Source of the DNA: Nitrosomonas sp.
Lineage (GTDB): Bacteria; Pseudomonadota; Gammaproteobacteria; Burkholderiales; Nitrosomonadaceae
Length of the DNA stretch: 64,000 nucleotides
NCBI GenBank assembly: GCA_019635215.1
Contig: JAHBZZ010000003.1
Coordinates: forward strand, 62,001-126,000
Reading direction: 5' to 3'
The translations under genes and the position numbers were made by a program. A model generated the notes under the pieces. It was given only the letters and a program-made list of their open reading frames with translations, searched no databases and had not been told where the DNA came from. Positions 2,609 to 64,000 of this stretch are shown piece by piece. How positions within the stretch are numbered: position 1 is the first letter of the stretch; every line of letters starts with the position of its first letter.

Positions 2609-3982
2609 TTAGTCGACATTGCGCCAACCAGGGTTGGAGAAATAGGTGCGTGTTTCCTTGACTACAATGTTCGATAACAGCAGCAGGCCGATCAGGTTGG
2701 GCAGTGCCATCAGTCCGTTGGCGATGTCGGAGAAGGTCCACACCAGTTCCAGTGACAGCACCGCACCGAGGTAAATCGTTGCAGAGAACACCAGTCGGTA
2801 AGGCACGACTCCCGTTCGCCCGACTAGGCGCTCGATGCAGCGTTCACCGTAGTAGCACCAGCCAAGGAGGGTGGTGAAAGAGAAAATCAGCACACTGAGG
2901 GTCACGGTATACGTTCCCCAATCGTTACCCAATCCTTGTTCCAACGCCCAGGCAGTCATCGGTGCGCCGACCAGCCCTTCCTGCATCCAGGCGCCGGTGA
3001 CGATGATCGCCAATGCGGTGAGGCTGACCATGATGAGTGTATCGATAAAGGTTTGCGTCATGGACACCATGGCTTGGCGCACCGGTTTGTCAGTGATGGC
3101 GGAGGCTGCCGCGATGGCACCGGTGCCGAGGCCGGATTCGTTGGAGAAGATGCCGCGCGCTACGCCCATTTGAATCGCCAGGATCACGGCTGCGCCGGTA
3201 AAGCCGCCGGCGGCCGCAGTACCGCTGAAAGCATCGGTAAATACCAGCATGATCGCCGCGGGCAGCTGGTCGGCGAATACAGTCAGTACCACCAGGTTAC
3301 TGATCATATAAAGGATGCACATCAGGGGTACCGCACCGGCTGCAAAGCGGGCGATGCGCTTGATGCCGCCGAGGATGACTGCTGCTGCGGCGATCGTCAT
3401 CACGGCGCCACTCCAGATGGGCGGTATGCCCCAGGTGGACTGGAGTTGTGTCGCAGCGGTGTTGGCTTGTACCATATTGCCGATACCCAGTGCGGCGATG
3501 GCGCCGAATACTGCGAAGGCAATGCCCAGCGTATTACCCCAGAAACCGCCGATACCGTAAGTCAGATAATACATCGGCCCGCCGCTTTGTTCTCCATGGG
3601 CGTCAGTACGCCGGTATTTTACGCCCAGCAGTCCTTCGGCGTACTTCGTTGCCATGCCGACCAGGCCGGTTATCCACATCCAGAACAGTGCGCCCGGTCC
3701 GCCAATGCCAATTGCTGTCGCGACACCGGCAATGTTGCCGACACCGATGGTTGCTGCCAGTGCTGTGGTCAATGCTTGATAATGCGATACATCACCGGTC
3801 AGTGTACTGCGCTCTTTGCGGCGGACGAAAGCGAGCCACAATGCATGCCCGAGTATCCGGAACTGCAGGCCCCGCAGACGGATTGTCAGATACAGGCCGG
3901 TGAGCAGCAACAACGGGATCAGCAGGAACGGCCCCCAGACAAAAGTATTGATTGTCGTCAGCACCGCATGCAGTTGTTCCAT
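2609..3982 (-). CDS. AGCS-family sodium/amino-acid (alanine/glycine) symporter
   Basis: 457-residue integral membrane protein with about ten hydrophobic segments. It carries the AGCS hallmarks: the N-terminal GPFLLIPLLLLTGLYLTIRL segment, ALAATIGVGNIAGVATAI (the sodium/substrate-binding loop), GGPGALFWMW, a YAEGLLGVKYR stretch and GIFSNESGLGTGAIAAA. Known members import alanine or glycine with sodium. It sits just downstream of the Mrp sodium/proton antiporter operon on the same strand (121 bp gap), which would suit sodium-coupled uptake, although a separate promoter is likely. The substrate cannot be told from the sequence. Confidence 0.93.
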   Translation of the reverse strand: MEQLHAVLTTINTFVWGPFLLIPLLLLTGLYLTIRLRGLQFRILGHALWLAFVRRKERSTLTGDVSHYQALTTALAATIGVGNIAGVATAIGIGGPGALFWMWITGLVGMATKYAEGLLGVKYRRTDAHGEQSGGPMYYLTYGIGGFWGNTLGIAFAVFGAIAALGIGNMVQANTAATQLQSTWGIPPIWSGAVMTIAAAAVILGGIKRIARFAAGAVPLMCILYMISNLVVLTVFADQLPAAIMLVFTDAFSGTAAAGGFTGAAVILAIQMGVARGIFSNESGLGTGAIAAASAITDKPVRQAMVSMTQTFIDTLIMVSLTALAIIVTGAWMQEGLVGAPMTAWALEQGLGNDWGTYTVTLSVLIFSFTTLLGWCYYGERCIERLVGRTGVVPYRLVFSATIYLGAVLSLELVWTFSDIANGLMALPNLIGLLLLSNIVVKETRTYFSNPGWRNVD

Positions 3983-4103
3983 CGTTATTATTCCTCAGGT
4001 GATTGCCGGGTAAGCGGCTGCATCTCAAAGCCAAGTTGTGCAGCAGCCCGCACACATTACTCTTGCGGCGTTTGATCGGGATTTACCAGCTCTTGAATAA
4101 TCA

Positions 4104-4526
4104 TCACTCAGGTTTTCCGTCATCCTGTTGCGCAGATTCAGATTTATCGGTTTGGCTGGATTGATCCAGTATGCCTTCAGGGGGATCCAGAGCGGGTACA
4201 CCGGGGTTGTTTTCCACCCGGTCGCGATAAAGTGCAGCGCGGCCGAGCAGCATCAAGGTGACCGGTGTTGTCAGCGTGACGAAAATCCCGATCAGGATTT
4301 CGTGGAAAACCGGCCGTGATTGCAGCATACTGAAACAGGTGATTGACGCCAGGACGATGGCCGCCGTACCCCAGCTTGTGCCCAGTGTCGGTGCATGGAT
4401 ACGGTCGTAGAAGCTGCGCAGGCGATGTAATCCGAATGAGCCGATGAGCGTCAGTCCAGATCCGATAAACAGGAACGCGGCGATGAGGCATGCCGCCCAC
4501 AAAGGGAGGTCGTCAAAGTGGTTCAT
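4104..4526 (-). CDS. mrpG: Mrp/Mnh monovalent cation/H+ antiporter subunit G
   Basis: 140 residues with three hydrophobic segments. The motif GSFGLHRLRSFYDRIHAPTL is typical of MnhG/MrpG (PhaG). A polar tail of about 35 residues rich in acidic residues follows residue 105. It is the last gene of the mrp operon, and its ATG overlaps the mrpF stop by 4 bp (ATGA), which indicates translational coupling. The complex exchanges cytoplasmic Na+ (or K+) for protons. Confidence 0.92.
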   Translation of the reverse strand: MNHFDDLPLWAACLIAAFLFIGSGLTLIGSFGLHRLRSFYDRIHAPTLGTSWGTAAIVLASITCFSMLQSRPVFHEILIGIFVTLTTPVTLMLLGRAALYRDRVENNPGVPALDPPEGILDQSSQTDKSESAQQDDGKPE

Positions 4527-4804
4527 TCGATGACCTCGCCGCGCATCAGGAATTTGGCCAGCGCCACCGTTGCGACAAAGCCTAGTATCCCGATGATCAG
4601 TGATGCTTCGAAATAAAGCGTATTCCCGGTACGCATGCCGAAAACGAGCAACAGCAGCATCGAATTAACGTAGAGTGTATCAAGACCCAATACGCGATCC
4701 TGCGCGCGCGGCCCTTTGATCATTCGCGTCAATGCGAGCGCCATGGCGATTGCCAGTGCAATTTGTGCGAAAGTGATGGCCCAAAGAAGGATAGCAGCAC
4801 TCAT
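4523..4804 (-). CDS. mrpF: Mrp/Mnh monovalent cation/H+ antiporter subunit F
   Basis: 93 residues with three transmembrane segments. The pattern RMIKGPRAQDRVLGLDTLYVN is the conserved centre of MnhF/MrpF (PhaF); the Asp in RVLGLD lies in the family's membrane motif. It overlaps mrpE upstream and mrpG downstream by 4 bp each. Confidence 0.92.
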   Translation of the reverse strand: MSAAILLWAITFAQIALAIAMALALTRMIKGPRAQDRVLGLDTLYVNSMLLLLVFGMRTGNTLYFEASLIIGILGFVATVALAKFLMRGEVIE

Positions 4805-5286
4805 TCAAATATCTCCCGCAAAAGGTATTCATAGCGATTTTTGATCAGGTCAAGCCAGACAGTTTCGTCTACAAGATCGAAAACATGAAGTAACAATGTT
4901 CCGCGCGCAGCATTGTAATCCAGCCAGGCCGTACCGGGCGTGCTGGTTATGATAACCGCCAGTGCAGCGAGGCCTGTGGAATCGCGTAAGTCGAGCGGAA
5001 TAGTCATAAACCCGGATTTCCGCGCCCGTTTGCCGCCCTGAAGGATGATTCTCGCTACAGCAATATTCGAGCGCACGATATCGTAGAGTACGATGCCGGT
5101 CAGCTTGAGCAGCAGATCCCAGCGCTTGAGGCGCGGCTTGTCAGGCTGGAGCGCGGCCATGCCCTGTACAGCGATAAACGCGATAGCGCTGCCGACAATC
5201 AGTTGGCCCAGTGAAAAATGGGTCAGCAGCAGCCACATGATAATCAGGAAGATCATCAGCAGCGGATGGGGAAATATGCGGTTCAT
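4801..5286 (-). CDS. mrpE: Mrp/Mnh monovalent cation/H+ antiporter subunit E
   Basis: 161 residues. The frame stays open further upstream to about 5700, but that stretch lies inside mrpD and reads as nonsense. The ATG at 5286 overlaps the mrpD stop by 4 bp like the other junctions and gives the family's usual length. Two N-terminal hydrophobic segments are followed by an amphipathic domain; the conserved TSTPGTAWLDY stretch (MnhE TPGT motif) and the LHVFD motif are present. Confidence 0.92.
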   Translation of the reverse strand: MNRIFPHPLLMIFLIIMWLLLTHFSLGQLIVGSAIAFIAVQGMAALQPDKPRLKRWDLLLKLTGIVLYDIVRSNIAVARIILQGGKRARKSGFMTIPLDLRDSTGLAALAVIITSTPGTAWLDYNAARGTLLLHVFDLVDETVWLDLIKNRYEYLLREIFE

Positions 5287-6908
5287 TCTTCTGCCTCCGT
5301 GCGCCACTGTGCGGCTTGCGGCGCTTTCAATACGGCTTCGATATAGGATTCCGGTTCGTGCAGGCTGACAGCCGTTGCTTCCATAAAGCGCATGACCGGC
5401 CCTGCCTGGACAGTGAGCGCCAGTGTCATGAACAACAGCACGGCTACGGGCACAATTTCGGTGAGCAGCACGCGTGGTACTAAAGCCGCTACCGGCGCCC
5501 AGAAGATGCGGATGCCGGCACGCACCAGCGCAATCAGCGCGGCAAGGCCTGAAAGAATGAGCAACGCCACAAACCACCATGCCGCCGATACAATCGTACC
5601 GCCTTGCCCGAATCCCTCGGGGTTGAGAATGGCTGTAAGAATGGCGAATTTGGCGATGAAGCCGGAAAGCGGCGGCAGGCCGGCCAGCAAGATACTGCAC
5701 GCGGCAAAGCTGATACCGAGTAAAGCAACCGCCCCCGGAATAGCGATACCGACGATTTCTTCATCCTCCTCTTCCTCGTCGCTTTCACCAAAGGCTTCCA
5801 TGGTCACGGCCAGAATGCTGGTAATCGGGTTCTGTTCTTTCTCGACGAGTTCGATGAGCATAAAAAATGCGCTGATCGCCAGTGTGGAGCTAGTTAAGTA
5901 GAACAATGCGCTGGCGGTGATATCGGTTTGCGTGAGACCGATGGCCGCCAGCAACGTTCCGGATGAAACCAGCACGGAAAAACCGGCAAATCGGCCAAGC
6001 GACTGTGATGCGAGGACGCCGATAATACCGAAAACGATAGTGATCAGTCCGCCATAGAAGAGGATCTGTGATCCAAAACCACCGCCCGGTTCTTCGCCGT
6101 AAAAAAGCAACGATAAGCGCAGTAGTACATAGATACCGACCTTGCTCATAATGGCAAATATCGCTGCTACGGGCGCCGATGCAAAAGTGTAAGTTGTCGG
6201 CAGCCAGAAGCCGAGCGGCCACATACCCGCTTTGATGAGGAAAGCCACGCCGAGAATGGCTGCGCCGATTTCCAGCAGCATGCGGTTCTCTTCAGCGATC
6301 TGCGGGATGCGCACAGCAAGATCGGCCATGCTGAGTGTACCCGTCGTACCGTAAATCAGAGCGACGCCGATCAGGAATAGCAGCGAAGCTGTCAGATTGA
6401 TGGCGATATAATGCAATCCTGCCCGGACCCGTTGCAGCCCCGAACCGTGCAGCGCCAGACCATAGGATGCGGCGAGCATGACTTCGAAAAAGACAAAGAG
6501 ATTGAACAGGTCTCCGGTAAGGAATGCGCCATTTAAACCCATGAGCAGCAGCAGGAATAGGGTATGGAAGTGCAGGCCGGCTTTGTGCCAGCGTCCGAGC
6601 GAGAAGATCAGCGTGGGAATCGCAAGTATCGAAGTCAGCATGAGCATCATGGCTGACAGACGGTCGAGAACCAGATTGATGGCAAAAGGCGGTGGCCAGT
6701 CGCCAAGCAGATAGACTACGATCCGTCCCCCGCTGGCGTGTGAAATTTCCAGAAGTTCATAGGCTATTCCAAGTAATGCGAGCGTGGCCAGAATCGATGC
6801 GCCTGCCTTAAGGTGCCGTTTGCGGTCCTCGACAAACAGCAGCAGCGCACCTGTGATAAACGGGATCAGAATCGGCGCGATAACGAGATGTTCCGGCGTC
6901 AATATCAT
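5283..6908 (-). CDS. mrpD: Mrp/Mnh monovalent cation/H+ antiporter subunit D
   Basis: 541 residues with about 14 transmembrane segments, homologous to the proton-pumping NuoL/M/N subunits of complex I. Conserved stretches are FFEVMLAASYGLALHG (the key membrane glutamate) and IKAGMWPLGFWLPTTYTFA (the key lysine and the PLHxWLP-like motif). A cytoplasmic loop around residues 370-385 is strikingly acidic (ESDEEEEDEE), which I believe is usual in this subgroup. The gene overlaps mrpC and mrpE by 4 bp each. Confidence 0.95.
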   Translation of the reverse strand: MILTPEHLVIAPILIPFITGALLLFVEDRKRHLKAGASILATLALLGIAYELLEISHASGGRIVVYLLGDWPPPFAINLVLDRLSAMMLMLTSILAIPTLIFSLGRWHKAGLHFHTLFLLLLMGLNGAFLTGDLFNLFVFFEVMLAASYGLALHGSGLQRVRAGLHYIAINLTASLLFLIGVALIYGTTGTLSMADLAVRIPQIAEENRMLLEIGAAILGVAFLIKAGMWPLGFWLPTTYTFASAPVAAIFAIMSKVGIYVLLRLSLLFYGEEPGGGFGSQILFYGGLITIVFGIIGVLASQSLGRFAGFSVLVSSGTLLAAIGLTQTDITASALFYLTSSTLAISAFFMLIELVEKEQNPITSILAVTMEAFGESDEEEEDEEIVGIAIPGAVALLGISFAACSILLAGLPPLSGFIAKFAILTAILNPEGFGQGGTIVSAAWWFVALLILSGLAALIALVRAGIRIFWAPVAALVPRVLLTEIVPVAVLLFMTLALTVQAGPVMRFMEATAVSLHEPESYIEAVLKAPQAAQWRTEAEE

Positions 6909-50398: not shown

Positions 50399-51906
50399 GT
50401 GATTACCATGGTTATGTATGCAAAGATACGGCGGATGTTTTACCGTGAACATTTGTCGATTAATGAGATTCAACGAAGAACGAGTCTGTCACGGAACACG
50501 ATCAAGAAGTGGTTGAAAGCGCCAAGTGACAGTGCTGTTAAATATCAAAGGGCGAAGAAGCCCGGCAAGCTGACACCATTTGAATCCAGATTGTTGCTGG
50601 CGCTGGAAGCGGATGCCCGCCGTCCCAGGAAAGACCGGCGCACTGCCAAGATGCTGTTCCAGGAAATCAGGAAGGACGGCTATGTTGGCGGTTATACGAT
50701 TGTGTGCGAATTTATCCGTAACTGGCGTACTCAAGGAAGCCAGAGTAAAACGGCGTATGTACCACTGAAGTTTGCGCTGGGTGAAGCGTTTCAGTTTGAC
50801 TGGAGCGAGGAATGGCTGGTGATCGGCGGTATTCACCGTAAAATGTTGGCAGCACATACCAAGCTATGCGCCAGCCGTGCTTTCATGTTGTCGGGCTATC
50901 CGTCACAAAGTCACGAAATGCTGTTTGATGCGCACACCCGTGCATTTGCGGCTTTTGGCGGCGTGCCGCAGCGCGGCATTTACGACAACATGAAGACCGC
51001 CGTGGACAAAGTATCCAAAGGCAACGGACGTGTGGTGAATACGCGCTTCTTTGCCATGACGGCACATTACCTGTTCGACCCTGATTTTTGTAATGTTGCT
51101 TCCGGCTGGGAGAAAGGCGTTGTCGAGAAGAATGTTCAGGATATGCGTCGCTGCATCTGGAATGAAGCCAAACAGCAGCCATTCAGCTCATTCGATGATC
51201 TGAACAACTGGCTTGAGGCACGCTGCCGCGCGTTGTGGTCTGAAATCGAGCATCCGGATTATGCGGGTATCACCCTCGCCGACGCATTGGAACAGGAACA
51301 GCTGTACCTGATGCCGATGCCGGCACCGTTCGATGGTTATATCGAAGTATTGGCACGGGTATCCAGCACGTGTCTAATCACATTACTGCGCAACCGTTAT
51401 TCCGCTCCCTGCCGTCTGGCCAATCAGATGGTGGCCGTTCATCAGTATGCCGACCGCATCAAGATCGTCCATAATAACGCCGTGGCAGCCTGTCATAGCC
51501 GCCTGTTGAATGGCGACCAGGTCAGCTATGACTGGCAGCACTATATTCCGGTCATCGAAAAGAAACCGGGCGCTTTGCGCAACGGTGCGCCATTTGCCGA
51601 ACTGCCGGCACCTTTGCTGCAGTTGCAGACTGCGCTGCGGCGCAGGGAGCGCCAGCAGGCTGATCGAATCATGGCCAAGGTACTTCAGCCTGGTGCCAAC
51701 GCATGGGCTGGAAGCGGTGCTGGTTGCCGTTGAATTGGTATTGGAATCCGGCGCCCAGTGCCGAGCATGTCTCCAATGTATTGGCACGGTTGAAACACAC
51801 CGACATGCCGGCGTCAGTGGAAACAACGCTGAAACTCAAGGAAGAACCACAGGCCGATACGGCGCGCTATGATCGCCTGAATACCAAAGAGGTGCCGCAT
51901 GTCTGA
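50399..51906 (+). pseudogene. istA: IS21 transposase IstA, frameshifted
   Basis: Starts at GTG 50399, ATG 50408 or ATG 50414. An HTH region (REHLSINEIQRRTSLSRNTI) is followed by a DDE core: FQFDWSEEW, the IYDNMKTAV motif, and EKNVQDMRRCIW. After codon 430 the frame must shift twice (about 51690 and about 51750) to recover the conserved end SLVPTHGLEAVLVAVELVLE then PSAEHV and TARYDRLNTKEVPHV. It overlaps istB by 8 bp, as usual. Probably inactive. Confidence 0.9.
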
Positions 51907-53239: not shown

Positions 53240-54724
53240 TTACTTTAGTTCCGCCAGCACCGTGCGGAAACTCGCCAACCCCGCTTCCAGGTTCTCGATG
53301 ATCTCTTCCGCCAGCTCATCCGGTTCCGGTAGGTTGTCGAGATCGGTCAGGCTTTTGTCTTTCAACCAGAACACATCCAGGCTGGTTTTGTCGCGCACGA
53401 TCAGTTCTTCATAACTGAACGCCCGCCAGCGGCTCTCTGGATTTTTCTCTGCATCCCAGGTTTGTTTGCGCTGATGGCGGTTTTCCGGGTTGTAGCACTG
53501 GATAAACTCGGACAAATCCTCGAAACGCAGCGGCTTTTTCTTCAGGGTGTGGTGAATGTTGGTGCGGTAGTCGTAGTACCAGACTTTTTTGGTCCAGGGC
53601 TTGGGGCTGGCCGGTTGGTTATCGAAGAACAATACATTCGCTTTTACGCCGTGTGCGTAAAAAATGCCGGTGGGTAAGCGCAGAATCGTATGCAGGTCGG
53701 TGTTTTCCAGCAGCTTCCAGCGAATCGTCTCGCCCGCGCCGCCTTCAAATAACACGTTATCCGGCACCACCACGGCGGCCTTGCCGGTGGTTTTGAGCAT
53801 GGTGCGAATATGCTGCACAAAGTTAAGCTGTTTGTTGGACGTAGTGGCCCAGAAATCCTGGCGGTTGTAGGTCAGGTCATCGGTTTCCTGTTCACCTTCT
53901 TCATTGGTAAAGCTCATGGTGCTTTTTTTTCCAAACGGCGGGTTGGCCAGCACATAATCAAAACTTTGCGGACTTTGCGCCACCAAGGCATCATTGGATG
54001 ACACCATGCTATCGCCATCGATCTCGCCGATGTTATGCAGGAACATATTCATCAAACACAATCGGCGGGTGTTAGCGACAATCTCATTACCGTAAAAAGT
54101 TTGGTGTTTCAGAAAGGTTTTTTGCGCTTTATCCAACTTGTAATTGTCTGGATTGGTAATGAAATCATAGGTGGCGAGGAAAAAACCGCCGGTACCACAG
54201 GCCGGATCGGCAATAGTTTTGCCCGGTTCTGGCCGTACACACTCCACCATGGCGCGAATCAAGGCACGTGGCGTGAAATACTGGCCAGCGCCGGATTTGG
54301 TGTCCTCGGCATTCTTTTCCAGCAATCCTTCGTAAATATCGCCTTTAACGTCTGCCCCCATGGTTGCCCACTGGGTACTGTCCACCATATCGACCAGCCG
54401 GTAGAGTTTTGCCGGGTCCTGAATTTTATTCTGGGCCTTGGTGAAAATTTGTCCCAGCATCCCTTTGTACGTACCCAGCGCGCGCAATAATTCCACATAA
54501 TGCACCTCCAGCTCAGCACCGCGTTTGGTTTTCAGTGTCTGCCAACTGTGTTTTTTCGGGATGCCGACATCGCGGTTATACGGTGGCCTGGAATACTCAT
54601 CTGCCATCTTCAGGAAAATCAGGTAGGTGAGCTGTTCAAGATAATCGCCATAGCCGACTCCGTCGTCGCGCAGAGTGGTACAGAAACTCCAGACTTTGGA
54701 AATAATTGGGGCAGTAGGGCTCAT
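53240..54724 (-). CDS. hsdM: Type I restriction-modification methyltransferase subunit
   Basis: 494 residues, full length. N6-adenine methyltransferase of a type I system. The N-terminal HsdM domain (about 1-140) is followed by the SAM-binding motif DPACGTGGF (173-181) and catalytic NPPF (261-264). It is the last gene of the operon; its ATG overlaps the stop of the AlbA-type gene by 4 bp. It is separated from hsdS by the embedded Argonaute and toxin genes, an unusual order. Confidence 0.97.
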   Translation of the reverse strand: MSPTAPIISKVWSFCTTLRDDGVGYGDYLEQLTYLIFLKMADEYSRPPYNRDVGIPKKHSWQTLKTKRGAELEVHYVELLRALGTYKGMLGQIFTKAQNKIQDPAKLYRLVDMVDSTQWATMGADVKGDIYEGLLEKNAEDTKSGAGQYFTPRALIRAMVECVRPEPGKTIADPACGTGGFFLATYDFITNPDNYKLDKAQKTFLKHQTFYGNEIVANTRRLCLMNMFLHNIGEIDGDSMVSSNDALVAQSPQSFDYVLANPPFGKKSTMSFTNEEGEQETDDLTYNRQDFWATTSNKQLNFVQHIRTMLKTTGKAAVVVPDNVLFEGGAGETIRWKLLENTDLHTILRLPTGIFYAHGVKANVLFFDNQPASPKPWTKKVWYYDYRTNIHHTLKKKPLRFEDLSEFIQCYNPENRHQRKQTWDAEKNPESRWRAFSYEELIVRDKTSLDVFWLKDKSLTDLDNLPEPDELAEEIIENLEAGLASFRTVLAELK

Positions 54725-56289
54725 GTATTTTCACTTGCTCTGTATTGGGCCAGGGTGTGCCTGCCTTTTTCTGTTAATCGGTATTTTTGGGTTGGGCTAC
54801 GCGGGGAATCTGGCTGGGTCATTTCTACCAAACCATTATCCAAAGCAGGCTGCAAATAGTTCTGGATAAATGTTGGCCGGTGATTCAGCTCCAGCTCTTC
54901 CAGCAGGGCTTTGGTGCCCAAAGGTTCAGCTTTCAAAGCATCCAGCAAACGGGTTACTTGTTCGGTTACTTGTTCGGTTACTTGTTCGGTTACTTGTTCG
55001 GTTACTTGCTGGATGGCTTGTTCTGTCTCAGCAAACCCCGCGTGTACCGGCAGGCGGATCAGAAACCAGGTGCGGTTTTCATCGGTTTCAAATACCGGCG
55101 CAGGTGAGCCATTGGCCGCCATCACCCGTAGGATTTTAGGGATGCCGGTAGAGCGGCCTTCGGTCAAATCCAGCTCTTTGAGGAACTCGCCGATACGCCG
55201 GTTGCGGTAACGGCGGCTGACGGCTTTACCTGCCTGCAAGTCTTTCAGGCAGATGGAACGGTCAGGGCCGGGAAAACTCAACACCATCAGTTCTTCTGCG
55301 GTAATACGAATTTCCACCGGCTCGCGGATTTCATAGGAACGGTGATAAACCGCATTCACTACCGCTTCTTCGATGGCGGCTAGGGGGAAATTCCAGAAGC
55401 GCTCAGCCTCCGGCTTGTGTGGGTGCTTAACGACCGTCTCGGTTAAATAATGACGCCCGATATAATCCACCGCATCGCGGGTAATGCGCCCCAGCGGCCC
55501 GAGAAACTCTTTTTCCTCAAATCTGTCCCCGCCCGGCCCATCGGGAAAATACACCACATCAATCTGGGTAGCAGGGAAAAACTGCTCCGGGTGCTCATTG
55601 AAAAACAGCAGGCCTACGTTCTTCGGGAACGCCATTTCCGCAGGGCCAGATACGACATTCATACGGCGACCCAGAGCCGCTACATCCAGCGAGCTTGCCT
55701 CTGCTGCCAGTTCACTGCCGATTTCCTGCAAAAACTCTCGCATTAAATAGGGTGATAAATCATTCAAGATGGCCGACTGCCGGTAACGATCATCAAACGG
55801 CGCCGTAGCCGCCAGTGACAGCAACTCCCGCTCATCTTCGCCTTTGGCGCGCACGGTACTGGTGTGCTTGCGAATATAAAACGCCCAGTCGGATTTTTTA
55901 TCGCTCAGACTCACTCGCGCTTTATAAGGTCGGGTTTCACCGCCCGGCACCCATAACACCAGAATCAAGCTGTCTTGTACTTCATAGGTAGCCGTTAGTG
56001 GATGATAGGGCGGCTGGATGGCCGAGTTGCCCTGGTTTAGCAACTCTTTCTGAATACTGTCGATCTGCTTCGGCAACAAACCAATAGGCGGCAATACCGG
56101 TTGCCCATTCTTCTCCTCCACGCCGATCACCACATAACCGCCACCCAGATTATGAAAGTCGTTAGCGAAAGCGCAGACACTGTGCAGGATGGATTCTGGA
56201 TTCCAGCCGGACTTGTATTCAATGCGCTCACTTTCGATGGTGCGCTGGTGGAGCAGGTCGTGGAGATTGATGGGGAGTTTGGACATCAT
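54721..56289 (-). CDS. AlbA_2/HATPase_c_4 (Schlafen-AAA-like) protein with winged-helix tail
   Basis: 522 residues. The N-terminal AlbA_2 domain (residues about 10-140) begins [20 protein letters not shown] and carries GGGYVVIGVEE. The central part has AIEEAVVNAVYHRSYE, the N-box of HATPase_c_4, and VLSFPGPDR. The C-terminal 80 residues look like a winged helix (KALLEELELNHRPTFIQNYL). Between them the linker has a repeated EQVT unit coded by a 12-bp DNA repeat. Proteins of this kind often occur inside type I R-M operons; their role is unclear and may be regulatory. Start ATG 56289 or 56286, abutting the upstream stop. Confidence 0.88.
   Translation of the reverse strand: MMSKLPINLHDLLHQRTIESERIEYKSGWNPESILHSVCAFANDFHNLGGGYVVIGVEEKNGQPVLPPIGLLPKQIDSIQKELLNQGNSAIQPPYHPLTATYEVQDSLILVLWVPGGETRPYKARVSLSDKKSDWAFYIRKHTSTVRAKGEDERELLSLAATAPFDDRYRQSAILNDLSPYLMREFLQEIGSELAAEASSLDVAALGRRMNVVSGPAEMAFPKNVGLLFFNEHPEQFFPATQIDVVYFPDGPGGDRFEEKEFLGPLGRITRDAVDYIGRHYLTETVVKHPHKPEAERFWNFPLAAIEEAVVNAVYHRSYEIREPVEIRITAEELMVLSFPGPDRSICLKDLQAGKAVSRRYRNRRIGEFLKELDLTEGRSTGIPKILRVMAANGSPAPVFETDENRTWFLIRLPVHAGFAETEQAIQQVTEQVTEQVTEQVTEQVTRLLDALKAEPLGTKALLEELELNHRPTFIQNYLQPALDNGLVEMTQPDSPRSPTQKYRLTEKGRHTLAQYRASENT
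54952..55008 (-). repeat. 12-bp in-frame tandem repeat in the AlbA-type gene
   Basis: On the plus strand ggttacttgttc is repeated, four full units and a final ggttacttg. On the coding strand it gives the peptide unit EQVT repeated (QQVTEQVTEQVT...). Being a multiple of 3, changes in copy number alter linker length without breaking the frame. Confidence 0.95.
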
Positions 56290-56481
56290 TCAGGAATTCG
56301 TGCCAGTTTCAGCCTTTACAGCCACATCGGCATCCACCAACACGGGCTGCCCATCCTGCCAGATCACTACGGGCTGCCCCAGTCGTCGCTTTTTATCCAA
56401 TTCCTTTGTAACGGCATCTTGCAAAGCCTGTAATATTTCCTGGCTTTTGGGGGAGGTTTGTTCTGTTATTGTGACTTTCAT
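56290..56481 (-). CDS. Small protein, putative antitoxin of the zeta-like kinase
   Basis: 63 residues. The pattern [20 protein letters not shown] is one I associate with small proteins coded next to zeta-toxin-like kinases. The N-terminal half looks helical, the middle beta-rich. It overlaps the zeta-like gene's stop by 4 bp (ATGA) and its own stop touches the AlbA-type gene's start. The antitoxin role is inferred only from position. Confidence 0.6.
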
Positions 56482-57050
56482 TGCTTTGCCTCCTGTACTA
56501 ACTGTTGATACATCGTTTCGTTCACCACATTACGCCCGTTTGGTGTTTGTTCAAAAACCTGCATGGGTGTACCGCTGACGTTCATAAAGCAGACACAGTA
56601 ATCGACTGTTGAACTGAATGCGTAGAGCAGATGATACAAGCTGCGGGGAAAGCGGCGCTGAATATCATCTGCCGGAATGTTATGCCCGCCCTGCCGAACC
56701 CGCTCTGTTACCCGCATTTTTGACATTTCCACACTGGGCAGTGCGAGGTAAATCAACTCGATTCGCCAGCCTTCGGCCTGTAAACGCTTAATCAAACGCA
56801 GATAGCTGCGGCCCGATAGCGTGGTTTCAAAAGCAAAATCCTGTCGGGCTTTAATGCGGGATTCAATTTCTTGAAGAAAAATCCTGCTGGCAGTTAGCAA
56901 TTCACGTTCTGGTGCAAGCGGTGACAAGCCTGCCGCAATCAGGTCAGCATTGATAAAATGTGAGCACTTCGCCACCTTGGGCAGGTAATTCAAGGCAAAG
57001 GTAGTTTTACCTGCCCCATTTGGGCCAGCGATAATCCAGCAAGTTGGCAT
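56478..57050 (-). CDS. Zeta-toxin-like P-loop kinase
   Basis: 190 residues from ATG 57050. P-loop [12 protein letters not shown] (residues 9-20), the [11 protein letters not shown] stretch (D36, catalytic in zeta toxins) and [19 protein letters not shown] follow in the order known from zeta/PezT-like proteins, which phosphorylate UDP-N-acetylglucosamine. Many short chromosomal versions exist without proven toxicity. The frame continues upstream to 57242, but that region is the AlbA-type fragment in another frame. Confidence 0.82.
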
Positions 57051-57092
57051 TACGAATTGCCTCGCTTTTGGATAGAAATACTGAAGCGGTAT

Positions 57093-57196
57093 AGGATGGA
57101 TTCTGAATTCCAGTCTGTCTTGTATTCGATGCGCTCGCTTTCCACTGTGCGATGGTGGAGGAGGTTGTCGAGGTTGATGGGGAGTTTGGGGGTCAT
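57093..57196 (-). pseudogene. Duplicated 5' fragment of the AlbA-type gene
   Basis: Read from ATG 57196 on the minus strand, the first 35 codons give [20 protein letters not shown] and on to [12 protein letters not shown], which pair with KLPINLHDLLHQRTIESERI and EYKSGWNPESIL at the start of the intact gene (56289). After this the similarity ends. It begins 8 bp after the Argonaute stop. A gene copy has evidently been cut here. Confidence 0.85.
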
Positions 57197-57204
57197 AGTT
57201 CCCA

Positions 57205-58626
57205 TTACATGTAGTAGCCATACCGAATTTGTGGCCGATCATTCTCGTCCAGATATTTCATGATTTCTCCCACCTTCCTAGCGCAGCTAAGCGTTATCGG
57301 ATATTTGCCGTCCAGCTGGGTGTTGTTCCAATTCATTTTGGTCAGGGCCAAGATTTCCTTTGCTAGGAACGCGGGGCTTTGCTCTGATCTTACAACACGT
57401 AACTCAAGTGGTTGTGGAATGTACATACCAGGATAAGTCTTGTAATACCAGATAGAACCGCGAGTGTAGAGCAACTGGCGTTGTTCATTGAGAACAAGGG
57501 AGGTGCCACGGTAGGGCGGATACGCTCCATTTCTGAAGAGTCGGAGCTGTGAATCCATGACCGTTACGAAATCTACCGTGTCGATGCGTAAATCCGAGGC
57601 AGCACCCATGAACCCGGACATTTCCGGATCAGAGAAATTGGATGTTTTATGCACCACCACTCGCCTAGGATACATTCTCATCGCGTTCCGATACTCTTCC
57701 AGGGCTGCCTTGAACAAGGTGCAAGCTTGCTCTTCAGATAGCCTCGGCACGCGATCTCCCTTTTCTAAATGAACCGGGGTGCCACGTAGAATCAAACCAT
57801 TACCCAGCTCATCGAAAACCTGGGCCAGACTAGTATTGAGAGTCTTCTTGTCTCTACTGCGATAGAAAGCCACTCCCAATGCACAGGAGAGCAAATTGCT
57901 GTCTGCTTTCTCCAAGCGCCAAGGGTTGGTCGCACCAGCTTTATAATATAGGGCCGTCGCCAAATTCCAGGCTTTGGTTGCATCATCCTGCTGACCCTTA
58001 CTACCAGAGATGAGCGATTCTACCCTCACCAACTGTAGTGGCTTACCCAAATGCATCGCCTTTGCTTTCAGTGCCCTACGGAAATTCAGCTCTGATTGAA
58101 CTTCGATACTTTCTTCGAGCTTTTCCTCATCTCCAACAGGTGCCTCCTTACTGACAGCATCGAAAATTGGCTTCGGAAGCACACAAATAATCACATCAAC
58201 TGGTCGATTCTGTGCGAGAAATTTTATCTCCTCATAATAAAGATTAATGGCCTCTTCTATTCGCTGTGAGCGATTTTTTATTTTGGTGATTTTTTCTATG
58301 TCCACCTGCCTGAGCGATCGCCCCAAATCCTGGTTGAATACTAATTCCGCATGAAAACCAACATCCTTATTGAACCCACAGAAATCCGGAAAAAGATTAT
58401 ATTTACGATCATCTTCAATATCTTTTATAGGAGACTTCATCCTCTCAAGAAGACTTGAAAGATCTTCAAGATCTTTGCTTGTCCCTATAGCACCCAACAG
58501 GATATTAGTTCGCCGAGTCAGAGAGCCCTTGTCATATACCCCATAAGCTGCGATACCTCGCCTTGGACAGATATGCACTCCATTAAAAAATTCGAGCCTT
58601 GGCTCATTGATATGCACCAGCTTCAT
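57205..58626 (-). CDS. Short prokaryotic Argonaute (MID-PIWI)
   Basis: 473 residues, the size of short pAgos, which lack the N and PAZ domains. The MID part (about 1-245) begins [20 protein letters not shown], and [13 protein letters not shown]...NPWRLEKAD leads into PIWI. PIWI-specific stretches are [19 protein letters not shown] (264-282), [31 protein letters not shown] and [20 protein letters not shown] (427-444), then KVGEIMKYL. The first catalytic position has GVAFY (A253) in place of the usual Asp, so the slicer site is lost. Known short pAgos use guides to sense DNA or RNA and switch on a partner effector with an APAZ domain. Its ATG overlaps the stop of the upstream gene by 4 bp, which marks that gene as the partner. 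Confidence 0.88.
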
Positions 58627-60074
58627 AAGCCAAAAAGCCCCTGTAGTTGTCCAGACTCATCTGAAGGCATTGAAGGTAAAGCTGTCCACTGTGTTTCATC
58701 CAAAGACGGTGCGCCATCCAGATTTAGAATCTGACTAAAAGAAAGGAATGAATCCTTAGAGCTTTTCTCTGAGAACAAATCTTCTTCATCAATAGATGAT
58801 AGCCAGGCAGCGATAAATCTGAAGTGATTCATGACCTGCTGATTGTTCTCCTGTCGTTTTATCCAGCCTAGATTGCTATGGCTAAAATCAGACTTTTTAA
58901 AGCCAGGGCCATAGCTAAAAAACCAGCTCGGCGTTATGGACATAAACCAGTTACCATCAAAATTCAGAAAATCCGCCGAGAACGATAGATGTTTCTGCAT
59001 GTAAACTTTGGACGAATCCTTCTTGTTGTATTGCCTTACGAAAACGGAGCGCTTAGCTTTTTTCTCTCCCTGCCACACTTCTTTTCTCTGATCCAGAGCG
59101 TCTTCACGAGGCAGAAATACAAACTCCTTTTCATCATTTTCCCAATGTACGCGCTCTTGGAACAGTCGATGCTGTAAGGAGAAGCGCAATAAAGACTTGA
59201 ATACGCGCTCATAATCTTCTCCGATCATGTAAAAATCTTGACTCCGATGTTCCTCCGCAGTTCCGTCTTCGATCAGATGCCGGTATGGGTTGTTGTTGTC
59301 GGTTAAGTCAAAAAAAGTGATCAGAGAACGACCATGAACAACATAAGTAGAAGGAATGCGTACCTGCATATCCTGATTGAACTCGCGGATTGTCTCGCGC
59401 CATCGCCCCTCTCTTCTTTTCCCATGATGCTCTACAAGATCACTATTTAGCTGCGCAATATATAGATATTCAGAAAAACCAATGGCGATCAGGTTGCTCG
59501 TTATTGTTTCTGGTGGATTTAGGGGTGGATCAATATCTTCATCCGCCAAGCCGATCGGAATACCGCGCAAGTAAGCCTTCAGATGATTGATCGTTGCTTG
59601 CAGGCTATGTGGTGAAGCATCCGCCGCCTTAGCACAAAGCTCCTGATAATCCCAAATATCCTTATTGGCAGAGAATTGGATTTTTTCTTGGCATACCGAA
59701 TCAATAGCCGATTGGGAGTAGCTGCCTTGCTTGGTAGATAGTATATAGACAACCAAGCGGCCATAACTCTGGTGCAGATTATGGTTTACAAATTTCTCGA
59801 TGGTGTGTTTGATCTTTCCAATATCAGCGGTAGCTGTGACCTGAACAGCAATGCGAGCGGTGTCATCGGCCAAGTCTATACCAGGGAAATTGGCCTGTTC
59901 AGCATTTAGGTTATGCAGATCGGGCCAGCCGCACAATTCACGCAAAAGGCCACAGATGATGTTTTCTGCCACTTTATGGGAATCAAAATTCCCCATGGCA
60001 CTGGAAGCTTCAATTTCATTGCGAAACTGGGAAATCAGCTCACGAAACTCATTCTGCAAGTCAAGAATTTTCAT
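58623..60074 (-). CDS. SMEK-like effector domain fused to an APAZ-like domain (pAgo partner)
   Basis: 483 residues from ATG 60074 (AAGG 9 nt upstream); a longer frame to 60161 lacks a ribosome site. Residues 1 to about 170 look like a SMEK domain: NFDSHKVAENIICGLLREL, then NFPGIDLADDTARIAVQVTA and KIKHTIEKF. The GID...QVT block has the look of a PD-(D/E)xK nuclease core (D67, Q78) although the usual lysine is T80. Residues about 185-483 resemble APAZ, the domain that pairs with short pAgos: FYMIGEDYERVFKSLLRFSL, MQKHLSFSADFLNFDGNWFM, SITPSWFFSYG and GWIKRQENN. The pairing with the Argonaute gene (4-bp overlap) is the strongest support. Both domain names are from memory of the families, without a profile search. 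Confidence 0.72.
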   Translation of the reverse strand: MKILDLQNEFRELISQFRNEIEASSAMGNFDSHKVAENIICGLLRELCGWPDLHNLNAEQANFPGIDLADDTARIAVQVTATADIGKIKHTIEKFVNHNLHQSYGRLVVYILSTKQGSYSQSAIDSVCQEKIQFSANKDIWDYQELCAKAADASPHSLQATINHLKAYLRGIPIGLADEDIDPPLNPPETITSNLIAIGFSEYLYIAQLNSDLVEHHGKRREGRWRETIREFNQDMQVRIPSTYVVHGRSLITFFDLTDNNNPYRHLIEDGTAEEHRSQDFYMIGEDYERVFKSLLRFSLQHRLFQERVHWENDEKEFVFLPREDALDQRKEVWQGEKKAKRSVFVRQYNKKDSSKVYMQKHLSFSADFLNFDGNWFMSITPSWFFSYGPGFKKSDFSHSNLGWIKRQENNQQVMNHFRFIAAWLSSIDEEDLFSEKSSKDSFLSFSQILNLDGAPSLDETQWTALPSMPSDESGQLQGLFGL

Positions 60075-60198
60075 ATGATAAAACCTTATTCCGGGCAGCC
60101 CTGCATTCCATCCGCTCTTTCCTGCCCACCGTGTTTTCGGTACAGAAATGTTTGATGACACAAAAATAAATTACTCGGCTGACGATAAGCCTTTAGGG

Positions 60199-61539
60199 TC
60201 ATGTTTCTACCTTAGTTTCAACAAGCCGACCGGAGAAGGCTTTTTTCAGGATAGACTGGCGTAGGATTTCAGCTCGCGCTAGTTCGCTGGCTATTTCCCC
60301 ATTCAATTTCTGCATCTGGGTTTCTTGTTGCTCAACTATCTTGGAGATTTTTTCTGTTTCCTTCGCGCCACAAAGAGGAAAAGCAATACTTTTGATACGG
60401 TTTTGCCCAATGTTTCTCATGGACTCCTGATTTCCTGAGGAACGACTCATAATTTCGTTACGGCCTATTGGACTTCGAAGCCAATAGAGAAAATACTCTT
60501 GCAACAAGCTGGAAAATTCTATCCTCAAGGTTTTATCACTGAGCATTATCCTTTTCGTAACATTCTTAGCGATAACACAAGCACCTACGAGTTCTATCGT
60601 ATTTGCCCTGCTGAGAAGAAAGTCCCCTTTCCTAATAAAATAGCTCTCGTTTATCTTGCCTAGATCATTGCAGGTTTTGCTTTCTGATTCATCGTATTCG
60701 CCCCATGTTACAGCGCTTACTTTTGCCACGCCTATTTCTTCTTCCGAAGGCTCACGTTCATCACACTTAAAGCTCTTCCCTGCATCAATTCCCAATATAA
60801 AAGAACCCAATCGGGCATATTTCCATTCTGGTGGAATCCGAGGAAGGCCGAACAACTCTTCTTTGGTAATTTCGCTCTTGCAATGAAATTGCTCGGGAAT
60901 TTCCAGCTTGTCGACGTTTTCCTTGCGCCATTGTTCGGTGAGTTTACCTTCGAAGGCATGTTTGAGCACGGCCTGACGGTAGACTTTGAGTTGTTCGCGG
61001 GCGGTTTTTAGGGATTCTATGCCTTTGTCCAGTTCGGAGAATAGGGTTTCGATTTTGGCAACGATGCTGTGTTGTTCGTTAATGGGTGGTAATGGAAACT
61101 TATTTTTCTTTAGAAACGAATAATGACGAGAATATCCTCGATCAGGCAACCGCAAAGACTTGCAGGCATAAAATGCGTATTTCTCAACAACATTATTTCT
61201 TGGAACAAGAACCTTTATCTCATCGGCGCCAGGTGCAAACGGAAATGAAATGTACTTGAAGCACTTGGTGTGGTCACCAAACACTATGGCAGAACGCGAA
61301 ATATGCAAAACCTTGTCTAAATCGTTGGTGTAACCACCAATCAAGTTAGCGCCCTGATCAATCACCGGGTACTCACCTGACTGTTCATATTCCTTCTGTG
61401 GAATTTTCAATCCTGTTAAAGGAAGGTTTTCAAAAGCCTCCTCAAAGTCTACATATACCCAATGATTAGGGATAGGAGGTGATTCTGGCATCCAGTCTTC
61501 TGTGGCAGATTCAGATTTCATCGCATCAGAACTCATCAC
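60199..61539 (-). CDS. hsdS: Type I restriction-modification specificity subunit
   Basis: 446 residues with two target-recognition domains. TRD1 covers about 20-155 (VYVDFEEAFENLPLTGL; FPLPPINEQHSIVAKIETLF follows as the first conserved helix); TRD2 covers about 235-400 (EWKYARLGSFILGIDAGKSF; later SIAFPLCGAKETEKISKIVE). The helices after each TRD are the spacer that sets the gap of the bipartite site. Its ATG overlaps the hsdR stop by 4 bp. The recognition sequence cannot be read from the protein. Confidence 0.94.
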   Translation of the reverse strand: MMSSDAMKSESATEDWMPESPPIPNHWVYVDFEEAFENLPLTGLKIPQKEYEQSGEYPVIDQGANLIGGYTNDLDKVLHISRSAIVFGDHTKCFKYISFPFAPGADEIKVLVPRNNVVEKYAFYACKSLRLPDRGYSRHYSFLKKNKFPLPPINEQHSIVAKIETLFSELDKGIESLKTAREQLKVYRQAVLKHAFEGKLTEQWRKENVDKLEIPEQFHCKSEITKEELFGLPRIPPEWKYARLGSFILGIDAGKSFKCDEREPSEEEIGVAKVSAVTWGEYDESESKTCNDLGKINESYFIRKGDFLLSRANTIELVGACVIAKNVTKRIMLSDKTLRIEFSSLLQEYFLYWLRSPIGRNEIMSRSSGNQESMRNIGQNRIKSIAFPLCGAKETEKISKIVEQQETQMQKLNGEIASELARAEILRQSILKKAFSGRLVETKVET

Positions 61540-64000
61540 GCCATCAACTCCCGATTCAATTCCTCAATCACTTCATCCATCTGATCACCAAACAATTGAT
61601 ACATTTTTCCCATACCACCCTGACCATCAAAGGGTGCCATTTCCAAGTCGTTCCGCTCCATATGAAAAGAACTGATAATGTGGTCGCGGATCATATGCAG
61701 CCAAGCCATTTGTGCTTCATTGAATTTTTCTCCGGCGCCGCTGTGGTGTTGCATGATCCAGCTTTGGAAGTTGCGGCGCACGGTATTGTTGTAGGTGGAA
61801 AGGGTGTTGTCCAATCCGGTGACGCGACGGATCAGCGCCACCAGCGCGGTAAGGTCGCTGATGGGGTTGTCGCCCTGATACTTTTCCAGGTGGGCGTAGG
61901 CTTGCCAGACGCGCAGCGGGGCCAGCTTGGGCCGGTCTTGCCGCAGGCGATCCAGCAGGGTTTTGATCATGTCGTAACTGACCTCGGCGCGACGGGCCGG
62001 GGTTTGAAAGTAAATGGTCAGAGCGTCTATGTCGTTTTGCTGTTCACGCAGGTAGTCGGCAAATTCCTGAGTGAGTGTCTTGGCGTTTTCGGTGGTGTCG
62101 CCGTCCCATTCGGCGCGGGTCACGCTGTCCAGGTCGTCGTGAACGATGGTCTGTTCCTTGTCGCGGCGGATGCTGTCAATCAGTTCCACCAATTCGCCGG
62201 TAAACACATTGGCGGCCTGCCCTACCAGTAGGTCGCGCGCTTGGTCGCGGGCGCTATCGCCGGGGTTGGTGCCTTCGGGTTGCTGGGCAATCTGTAGGGC
62301 TTTTTGCTCGACGGTATCGGGGTTGATGGCATTGAGCAGTTCGCCGACGATCAGCAGCAGCGGTTTGCCGCCGGCTTTTTCGCTGATGCGGGCGCGGTCT
62401 TTGTCGTCGAGCTGTCTGTCCAGCCGCGCCAGGCGGCCGGCGAGCGAACTGACGGTGTCTTCATCGCGCACGCCCATCATTACACCCATGGCCAGTTCCT
62501 TGAGGGAGACGCCGGGTTTGGTAATCAGCGGCTGGCTGGCGGTTTTCAGGGATTTGGTGACGCCGATAGCATCCACAATCACGTAATGGGTTTTGGCGCT
62601 GGTGGCGGACGGGGTGACTTTTTTCAGGCTGTCGGCATCCAGAGTGCGGGTGCCCCGGCCTTTCATTTGTTCGAAGTAGTTGCGGCTTTTGACATCGCGC
62701 ATAAACAGCAGGCATTCCAGCGGGCGCACGTCGGTGCCAGTGGCGATCATATCCACCGTTACGGCAATGCGCGGGTGGTAGTCGTTGCGGAATTGGGCGA
62801 GCACGGATTTGGGGTCTTCTTCGATTTTGTAAGTGATCTTTTTGCAGAACTGGTTGCCCTCACCGAACTCTTCGCGCACGGTATTGATAATGTCGTCGGC
62901 GTGGCTGTCGGTTTTGGCGAAGATCAGGGTTTTGGGCACTTCCTGGCGGCCGGGGAATATCTCCGGCAGTTTTTCCTTAAAGGTGCGGATGACAGTACGA
63001 ATCTGGTCCGGGTTGACGATATCCCGGTCGAGTTGTTTGGCGGTGTAGGTTTCGTCTTCGTCCTGGATTTCCCAGCGTTTTTTGCGGGTGAGGCGTTCGC
63101 GCTTTTCCACCTGTTGTTTGGCGGTAAGAATGTCGCCCTGTTTGGTTTTTTCGGTTTCGATCACATAGATTTCGTTACCCACGTTAACGCCGTCGGCCAC
63201 GGCTTTTTCGTGGTCGTATTCGCTGACCACGTTCTTTTTGAAGAAGCCGTAGGTGCGGTTGTCCGGGGTGGCGGTGAGGCCGACCAGGTAGGCGTCGAAG
63301 TATTCAATCACCTGCCGCCACAGGTTGTAGATGGAGCGGTGGCATTCGTCGATGACGATAAAGTCGAAAAATTCCAGTGGGATTTTTTCGTTATACACCA
63401 CCGGCAGGGGTTCTTTTCGCAGAGGGGCACGCTCTGCCGGGTTGTCTTCCTCGGTGGCTTCGTCCAGCTCCTCGCCTTTGAGCAGGGAGTACATGCGCTG
63501 AATGGTGCTGATGCTGACCTGGGTGTCTGTGGCGACAAAGGACGATTTGAGCCGCTGCACGGTGTACAGCTCGGTGAACTTGCGGTTGTCGTCATTAGGC
63601 AGGAAGGACATGAATTCCTGCTCCGCCTGTTCGCCGAGGTTTTTGGTATCCACCAGAAACAGGATGCGCTTGGCGCCGGCGTGTTTCAGCAGGCGGTAGG
63701 TGGCGGTAATCGCAGTAAAGGTTTTGCCGGAGCCGGTGGCCATTTGCACCAGGGCGCGGGGTTTGTCCTGTTTGAAGGACGCTTCCAGGTTGGTGATGGC
63801 GGTGATCTGGCAGTCGCGCAGGCCGGAGGTATCCAGCGGTGGCATCTGTTGCAGGCGGGCGCGCAGGGTTTGCGGTTGGGCCAGCCATTCGGCCAGGGTT
63901 TCCGGGCGGTGGAAGTTGAAAATTTCGCGGGAGCGGGGTACCGGGTCGCGACCATCGGTAAAGCGGGTAATGATGCCAGTGCTTTCGTACACGAAGCGCA
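61536..64000 (-). CDS. hsdR: Type I restriction enzyme, R subunit (5' end outside window)
   Basis: The frame is open to the window edge, giving at least 820 residues (first in-frame GTG 63992). The SF2 helicase/translocase core has ALVQMATGSGKTFTAIT (Walker A), VIDECHRSIYNLW (DECH), GLTATPDNRT and the late MKGRGTRTLD. The C-terminal HsdR domain follows. The N-terminal nuclease part (RecB-type PD-ExK), about 200-250 residues, is missing at the edge. It is the first gene seen of the operon hsdR-hsdS-effector-pAgo-zeta-antitoxin-AlbA-hsdM. Confidence 0.96.
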   Translation of the reverse strand, partial: RFVYESTGIITRFTDGRDPVPRSREIFNFHRPETLAEWLAQPQTLRARLQQMPPLDTSGLRDCQITAITNLEASFKQDKPRALVQMATGSGKTFTAITATYRLLKHAGAKRILFLVDTKNLGEQAEQEFMSFLPNDDNRKFTELYTVQRLKSSFVATDTQVSISTIQRMYSLLKGEELDEATEEDNPAERAPLRKEPLPVVYNEKIPLEFFDFIVIDECHRSIYNLWRQVIEYFDAYLVGLTATPDNRTYGFFKKNVVSEYDHEKAVADGVNVGNEIYVIETEKTKQGDILTAKQQVEKRERLTRKKRWEIQDEDETYTAKQLDRDIVNPDQIRTVIRTFKEKLPEIFPGRQEVPKTLIFAKTDSHADDIINTVREEFGEGNQFCKKITYKIEEDPKSVLAQFRNDYHPRIAVTVDMIATGTDVRPLECLLFMRDVKSRNYFEQMKGRGTRTLDADSLKKVTPSATSAKTHYVIVDAIGVTKSLKTASQPLITKPGVSLKELAMGVMMGVRDEDTVSSLAGRLARLDRQLDDKDRARISEKAGGKPLLLIVGELLNAINPDTVEQKALQIAQQPEGTNPGDSARDQARDLLVGQAANVFTGELVELIDSIRRDKEQTIVHDDLDSVTRAEWDGDTTENAKTLTQEFADYLREQQNDIDALTIYFQTPARRAEVSYDMIKTLLDRLRQDRPKLAPLRVWQAYAHLEKYQGDNPISDLTALVALIRRVTGLDNTLSTYNNTVRRNFQSWIMQHHSGAGEKFNEAQMAWLHMIRDHIISSFHMERNDLEMAPFDGQGGMGKMYQLFGDQMDEVIEELNRELMA

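Follow-up and report, generated by a model that had tools for sequence, protein, structure and literature searches.

The stretch of DNA analyzed here (the window) comprises 64,000 nucleotides from Nitrosomonas sp. (contig JAHBZZ010000003.1, positions 62,001 to 126,000) and carries, on its minus strand, a gene for a SMEK-APAZ protein followed by a gene for a short prokaryotic Argonaute (pAgo). The pair is real, its matches lying far beyond chance, and it is an intact example of an already described branch of the SPARDA systems, with modest new details. We hold it to be very probable that it acts as an RNA-guided, DNA-triggered defense pair of the SPARDA type, of the described SMEK-APAZ (Mrr-APAZ) kind, with the SMEK domain cutting DNA. 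The features that carry this reading are as follows:

58623..60074, minus strand: SMEK-APAZ effector gene, 483 amino acids; SMEK nuclease-like domain at residues ~9-160, APAZ at residues ~183-480
57205..58626, minus strand: short pAgo, 473 amino acids, MID-PIWI, first PIWI Asp lost
58623..58626, minus strand: stop/start overlap of the two genes, 4 bp
59808..59879, minus strand: predicted SMEK active-site stretch, residues 66-89 (D67, D70, Q78, T80, and K87)

Both open reading frames (ORFs) of the initial annotation, a 473-amino-acid MID-PIWI Argonaute and an upstream partner overlapping it by 4 bp, were found at these coordinates. The pAgo gene starts with ATG at 58626 and the SMEK-APAZ gene with an in-frame ATG at 60074. 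An alternative GTG start at 60161 in the ORF list would extend the latter protein to 512 amino acids; the 29 extra N-terminal residues did not improve the Pfam match to SMEK_N (5.8e-45 versus 5e-45). The overlap likely couples the translation of the two genes. A scan for promoters and terminators around the pair showed no excess over shuffled sequences (3 versus a mean of 5.6; 3 versus a mean of 3.0). A dip in GC content (0.437 to 0.458 over 58001-62000) was dropped as a sign of transfer, since comparable dips occur elsewhere in the window.

Pfam SMEK_N matched residues 10-150 of the partner (5e-45) and NCBIfam matched residues 6-100 (4.5e-26), in agreement with the N-terminal SMEK domain initially proposed. 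SMEK_N was the only match of the partner in the Pfam scan at E values up to 1, which excluded DUF4365, SIR2, and TIR as identities of the domain; DUF4365 was present according to Pfam in all four DREN-type relatives checked (loci L009, L011, L012, and L016). As a single sequence, the SMEK domain of the window aligned with PDB entry 26bh (4.5e-16, 61.6 bits), and a SMEK profile reached 3e-42. The title of this entry reads "the Mrr domain from Kordia jejudonensis Mrr-APAZ pAgo". By Pfam the domain is SMEK; whether it should be called SMEK rather than Mrr is partly a question of naming, because the depositors of 26bh use Mrr for the same domain.

The C-terminal half had been likened to APAZ, and its residues 287-481 indeed aligned with the APAZ region of the solved DREN-APAZ protein 9jsb (7.6e-12), a profile search against which gave 1.2e-32 over profile positions 241-475. 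The region also aligned, weakly (0.00089), with the partner in the solved HNH complex 9om4. Nearly the whole protein (residues 1-469) matched the PADLOC model Aga_REase-PNTD1-PNTD2, a model for pAgo-associated restriction endonucleases (1.4e-166), in whose label we read PNTD1-PNTD2 as APAZ.

The PADLOC model pAgo_I covered all 473 residues of the Argonaute (4.8e-178). Pfam gave no match for it at E values up to 1, and a check with Pfam only would therefore have missed it. The closest solved chains were the Argonautes of the DUF4365/DREN entries 9qbp, 9jsb, and 9qbl (2.9e-76 to 6.6e-71), followed by that of the HNH entry 9om4 (2.2e-65); the other solved short pAgos, which we take to include those of SPARTA, scored 6.1e-37 or worse. 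By alignment to the solved short pAgos, GVAFY lies at residues 251-255, and the first PIWI Asp is gone, as initially noted; aligned relatives read G-[VI]-[AGS]-FY. At the places where the tetrad positions presumably fall in the window PIWI, DEDX was not found; the first position has GVAFY and the third HKTS. In NbaAgo, R183, K187, and K240 bind the 5' phosphate of the guide, and N181 and F182 lie in the first-base pocket (PMC12205087). At the corresponding positions of the alignment, the window pAgo has R183, K187, K229, N181, and F182, and these residues were invariant in all 13 pAgos of alignment A2. Since the guide-phosphate residues are kept and GVAFY replaces the first Asp, a role as a guided sensor that would not slice is well supported at the sequence level.

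Conservation in the SMEK domain centers on the predicted active-site stretch. D67, D70, Q78, T80, and K87 were invariant in all 14 rows of alignment A3 (12 of them from SMEK-APAZ proteins) and in all 15 rows of alignment A5, in which the full invariant set was E37, N62, I66, D67, L68, D70, Q78, T80, K87, T91, and F95. By alignment, E37, D67, D70, Q78, T80, and K87 are also present in the Kordia domain of 26bh. Alignment A5 comprises the window, L002, L003, and L035, all with APAZ, plus 11 SMEK proteins of viral contigs. It is redundant, with 10 clusters at 80% identity (L002 and L003 form one; L044, L056, L057, L058, and L061 form another). Apart from L035, the viral-contig rows were retrieved with patterns requiring N62, I66, D67, and L68, one of which also required D70, and the invariance of the IDL block in these rows is therefore partly a product of selection. 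Another search pattern includes Q78 and T80, which bears on L032 and L033; none of the patterns specifies K87. The GID...QVT block, singled out earlier as a possible degenerate nuclease core, is thus the conserved core of the SMEK domain, whose closest solved relative is termed Mrr by its depositors. DREN nucleases use D41, Q60, and K62 (PMC12205087). Q78-V-T80 of SMEK resembles the Q-x-K of DREN without the lysine, T80 standing in the place of the latter, and K87 is a candidate replacement that would give a displaced-lysine site.

The initial annotation had considered SMEK-APAZ absent from described short-pAgo systems. This novelty was rejected on the basis of the literature and PADLOC. SMEK-APAZ paired with a short pAgo is mentioned in PMC10810196 and PMC12205087, one of which files SMEK under SPARDA; the former lists SMEK among the nucleases fused to APAZ, citing a 2020 study of Kordia jejudonensis, and the PADLOC-DB of 2023 already contains the nearly full-length model for the partner. 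The Kordia jejudonensis SMEK-APAZ (Mrr-APAZ)/KjAgo pair, reported as a heterodimer, likewise has SMEK/Mrr on the APAZ partner of a short pAgo, but the single-sequence similarity is moderate (61.6 bits), and the comparison covers the SMEK domain alone. The window pair shares with the DREN SPARDA systems (NbaSPARDA, 9jsb; 9qbp/9qbl; TmuRE-Ago) a pAgo similar to the solved ones at ~1e-70 or better, detectable APAZ homology, and conserved guide-phosphate residues. It differs in having an N-terminal SMEK instead of DUF4365, two domains without detected sequence homology, and QVT for QxK. The HNH-APAZ short pAgo (9om4) is similar in its pAgo (2.2e-65) and weakly in APAZ (0.00089), unlike in its HNH effector. 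SPARTA (TIR-APAZ) and SPARSA (SIR2-APAZ) follow the same logic of short pAgo plus APAZ, with NADase effectors (PMC12205087), whereas the window partner has neither TIR nor SIR2.

By analogy with the characterized relatives, the catalytically dead MID-PIWI Argonaute and APAZ would pair up as a heterodimer and take up a small RNA as guide. Pairing of the guide with invading DNA would lead complexes to assemble, bringing together SMEK domains which, as PD-(D/E)XK-like nucleases, would cut DNA without sequence specificity. Such collateral cutting would kill or stall the cell, and the spread of phage or plasmid would be stopped. The guide RNA, the DNA target, the assembly, the collateral cutting, and the abortive outcome are all transferred from those relatives; assembly and collateral cleavage are proposed because NbaSPARDA and TmuRE-Ago behave in this way.

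Several points weigh against this reading. In two attempts, hhalign comparison of SMEK with four DUF4365/DREN domains gave a probability of ~1% and an E value of ~0.05, and homology of SMEK and DREN by profile comparison was thus not significant. Because of this, the PD-(D/E)XK assignment leans on the name Mrr and on the D...Q pattern. SMEK is without the QxK lysine that DREN uses. The pocket residue W201 of NbaAgo is R201 in the window pAgo, and the preference for guide or first base may therefore differ from that of NbaAgo. Moreover, no defense assay of a SMEK pair was found in the passages of PMC10810196 and PMC12205087.

An alternative, which we consider unlikely, is that SMEK would cut the recognized target specifically, so that plasmid or phage DNA is cleared and the cell survives. 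In agreement with it, the Kordia work is presented in PMC10810196 as RNA-guided cleavage of target DNA by the heterodimer. However, weak collateral activity on double-stranded and single-stranded DNA is reported for the same pair (PMC12205087), and the DREN systems TmuRE-Ago and NbaSPARDA act collaterally (PMC10810196, PMC12205087).

Slightly less credible still is a DNA-binding or structural role for SMEK, with one of two other genes of the operon, a Zeta-like kinase or an AlbA protein, as the effector. The replacement of the QxK lysine by T80 and the undetectable homology to DREN would fit this, both genes lie directly downstream of the pair, and in L003 an AlbA_2/HATPase_c_4 gene is found two genes upstream of SMEK-APAZ. 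Nevertheless, D67, Q78, and K87 are conserved, the domain is named Mrr in 26bh, and tblastn (1e-3) over the stretches examined of the 14 other SMEK-APAZ loci detected the kinase in none and the AlbA protein in one (L003). DNA cutting by SMEK under the control of the pAgo remains the preferred reading.

Genes joining SMEK to APAZ, whole or split into pieces, were found in 15 loci, matched over both domains (the window, L002, L003, L018-L023, L025-L029, and L035, the last found through its pAgo); proteins with SMEK only are not counted among them. In 14 of the 15, the ORF immediately after SMEK-APAZ is a pAgo; in the remaining one (L028) the contig ends there. In L030, L031, L032, and L033 no pAgo match was found in the stretches examined, and L040-L064 were not searched for pAgo. 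Six plasmid relatives covering at least 80% of the partner are annotated as "SMEK domain-containing protein", each beside a pAgo. Damage was observed in 3 of the 15 loci: the pAgo of L022 is split in two ORFs and not annotated as a gene, SMEK-APAZ of L029 lies in two ORFs, and that of L027 has lost the SMEK start. A transposase-like ORF, recognized by eye, lies near the damaged L027 gene. That the window pair is a decayed, nonfunctional passenger of its operon is most improbable. These three loci, the APAZ remnant beside the pAgo of L068, and a gene-start remnant adjoining the window pair would speak for it, but neither window ORF is interrupted, and the alignment-invariant residues and the overlap are kept.

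The system is sporadic. Model PDLC02399 matched 11 of 398 genomes of the phylum, 5 of which were read as SMEK-APAZ (G000, G259, G283, G339, and G383; G339 is split and G283 lacks the SMEK start), the rest matching through APAZ or SMEK alone. Within the class, 2 of 369 genomes were matched, including that of the window. Of 61 genomes of the genus, a single one besides that of the window gave a match to the window pAgo (28% identity, residues 180-471).

A tree of 25 pAgos placed 13 SMEK-linked ones in one group (support, 100/98), which also contained L024 (EAD8-like partner), L034 (DUF4062), and L068 (APAZ remnant). L024 was placed inside the group at 96/96, and the fork including L034 stood at 92/93, unstarred. 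The five DREN-labeled pAgos formed a neighboring group (96/98; L009, L011, L012, and L016 labeled by Pfam, L013 by similarity only), and SIR2-linked rows fell in a separate one. The tree lacks a SPARTA row, L022, and L028, and it flags long branches and odd composition.

In L034 (viral contig, 3609-6425), the pAgo is 47% identical to that of the window, and its partner is a DUF4062-APAZ protein (DUF4062, 7.4e-25), which is another effector swap. In L024 (3533-7342 of Nostoc carneum NIES-2107 plasmid AP018182.1), the gene before a pAgo with 54% identity to that of the window encodes an APAZ protein whose N terminus resembles EAD8. Pfam scored this N terminus at only 0.036; the region shares 72 of 128 residues with an EAD8-FGE protein from Nostoc sp. 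HK-01, whose own EAD8 match (4.2e-5) falls under the Pfam cutoff. Upstream, on the same strand, lies an EAD8-trypsin protein (4.4e-23 and 4.3e-23); blastp did not align the two EADs of L024 with each other. This arrangement suggests that the short pAgo of L024 recruits a protease through adaptor domains. The term "effector-associated domain" was not found among the literature matches listed, papers mentioning both TRADD-N and Argonaute exist, and term searches of the text of PMC8195603 and PMC7159879 available did not find APAZ. In L067 (4699-7434 of a Nostoc sp. UHCC 0926 plasmid), the pAgo is 98.7% identical to that of L024. Its record is absent from the 22 listed as matching the EAD8-APAZ protein, the preceding gene is on the opposite strand, DISARM genes are nearby, and this pAgo may be an orphan.

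The window pair lies within a type I restriction-modification (R-M) operon, in the one-strand order hsdR-hsdS-[SMEK-APAZ, pAgo, Zeta-like kinase, AlbA protein]-hsdM:

61536..63992, minus strand: hsdR, type I R-M restriction subunit (Pfam ResIII, 2.5e-40; EcoEI_R_C, 7.9e-40)
60199..61539, minus strand: hsdS, specificity subunit (Pfam Methylase_S, 1.2e-13; PADLOC Specificity_I, 1.2e-52)
57089..57196, minus strand: remnant of a second AlbA-gene start, between pAgo and kinase (tblastn, 5.6e-12)
56478..57053, minus strand: Zeta-toxin/AAA_33-like P-loop kinase (Pfam Zeta_toxin, 1.2e-8 with either start)
54721..56289, minus strand: Schlafen AlbA_2/HATPase_c_4/Fic-like_C cargo protein (Pfam, 4.3e-14, 1.6e-8, and 3e-29)
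53240..54724, minus strand: hsdM, methyltransferase subunit (Pfam N6_Mtase, 7.1e-72; HsdM_N, 1.2e-11)

The product of hsdR has 818 amino acids in the window versus 847-939 in L084-L090, and the 5' end of the gene probably lies beyond the window. The AlbA cargo gene and hsdM share 4 bp. The kinase ORF as listed starts at 57242 and overlaps the end of the pAgo gene, its longer N terminus spanning the AlbA remnant; the likely start is the Met at 57053, just before the P-loop. The remnant corresponds to residues 1-36 of the AlbA protein, with a 72% match, and is likely a recombination scar. Near hsdM, the ORF 50399-51733 resembles, by eye, an IS21-type transposase.

An hsdM match with an E value of at most 1e-100 was found in 15 of 61 genomes of the genus, including that of the window. 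The hsd loci of 9 of the other 14 were examined; 8 have hsdR, hsdS, and hsdM together, and the ninth (L091) is cut by a contig end. SMEK-APAZ and pAgo were not found in any of the nine (tblastn, 1e-3). All eight complete relatives carried a different cargo between hsdS and hsdM according to Pfam:

L084: DUF4357/GIY-YIG; DarT plus macrodomain gene
L085: DUF4357/GIY-YIG
L086: Mrr, DUF4143 ATPase, and AlbA fragment, among others
L087: YhcG/DUF1016
L088: DarT plus macrodomain gene
L089: GIY-YIG
L090: PIN
L092: split hsdS, then an AlbA_2/HATPase_c_4 protein

Nucleotide alignments covered hsdM (68-77%) and hsdR (69-73%) in all eight. Of the window DNA between these genes, parts of hsdS aligned, and the only alignment within the cargo was to a 168-bp AlbA fragment of L086. 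A second hsdM start (codons 4-43) lies just upstream of DarT in L084 (5730-5846), and a C-terminal piece of hsdS lies beside the cargo in L086 (5377-5562). Such remnants of gene starts and of hsdS beside cargo suggest stacking driven by recombination.

Other SMEK pairs adjoin BREX (L020), a type ISP enzyme (L018), type I R-M (L021), and, in L003, a DpdE/DrmD-like helicase with a DrmMI-like methylase (L002 was tested for the helicase only). In total, the pair lies beside such systems in 6 of the 15 loci, window included; the other 9 were not systematically annotated. HsdS and AlbA_2 proteins occur in pAgo operons (PMC6299218), and defense genes embedded in type I R-M loci are described for TgvAB of V. 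cholerae (PMC11411939) and DarTG2 of E. coli (PMC12255303). These loci are similar in holding a second defense system among the hsd genes, and the window differs in that its cargo, between hsdS and hsdM, is a short-pAgo pair with two further genes. The embedding is thus not new in itself.

A broader joint reading, tentative and on balance doubtful, is that SMEK would have a rearranged PD-(D/E)XK site (D67, Q78, and K87, the lysine coming from elsewhere than the QxK position) activated only by pAgo assembly, and that in this genome the pair would serve as an embedded second line that aborts infection by invaders evading restriction. The interval between hsdS and hsdM would then be an exchange site in which last-resort effectors are swapped and stacked by recombination at gene starts, leaving remnants.

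The value added to the described branch is narrow. It includes D67/Q78/K87 as a conserved candidate active site of SMEK, on whose mechanism the open papers found say little, and the SMEK-linked pAgo group with its EAD8-like and DUF4062 partners is an additional detail; the combination in L024 of an EAD8-like APAZ protein with a neighboring EAD8-trypsin gene may merit its own study. By our reading, SMEK-APAZ/pAgo pairs are sparse in the phylum (5 of 398 genomes). For the genus, the finding points to a cargo slot in the type I R-M operon, occupied by DarT plus macrodomain, Mrr, YhcG, GIY-YIG, PIN, AlbA, or short-pAgo genes.

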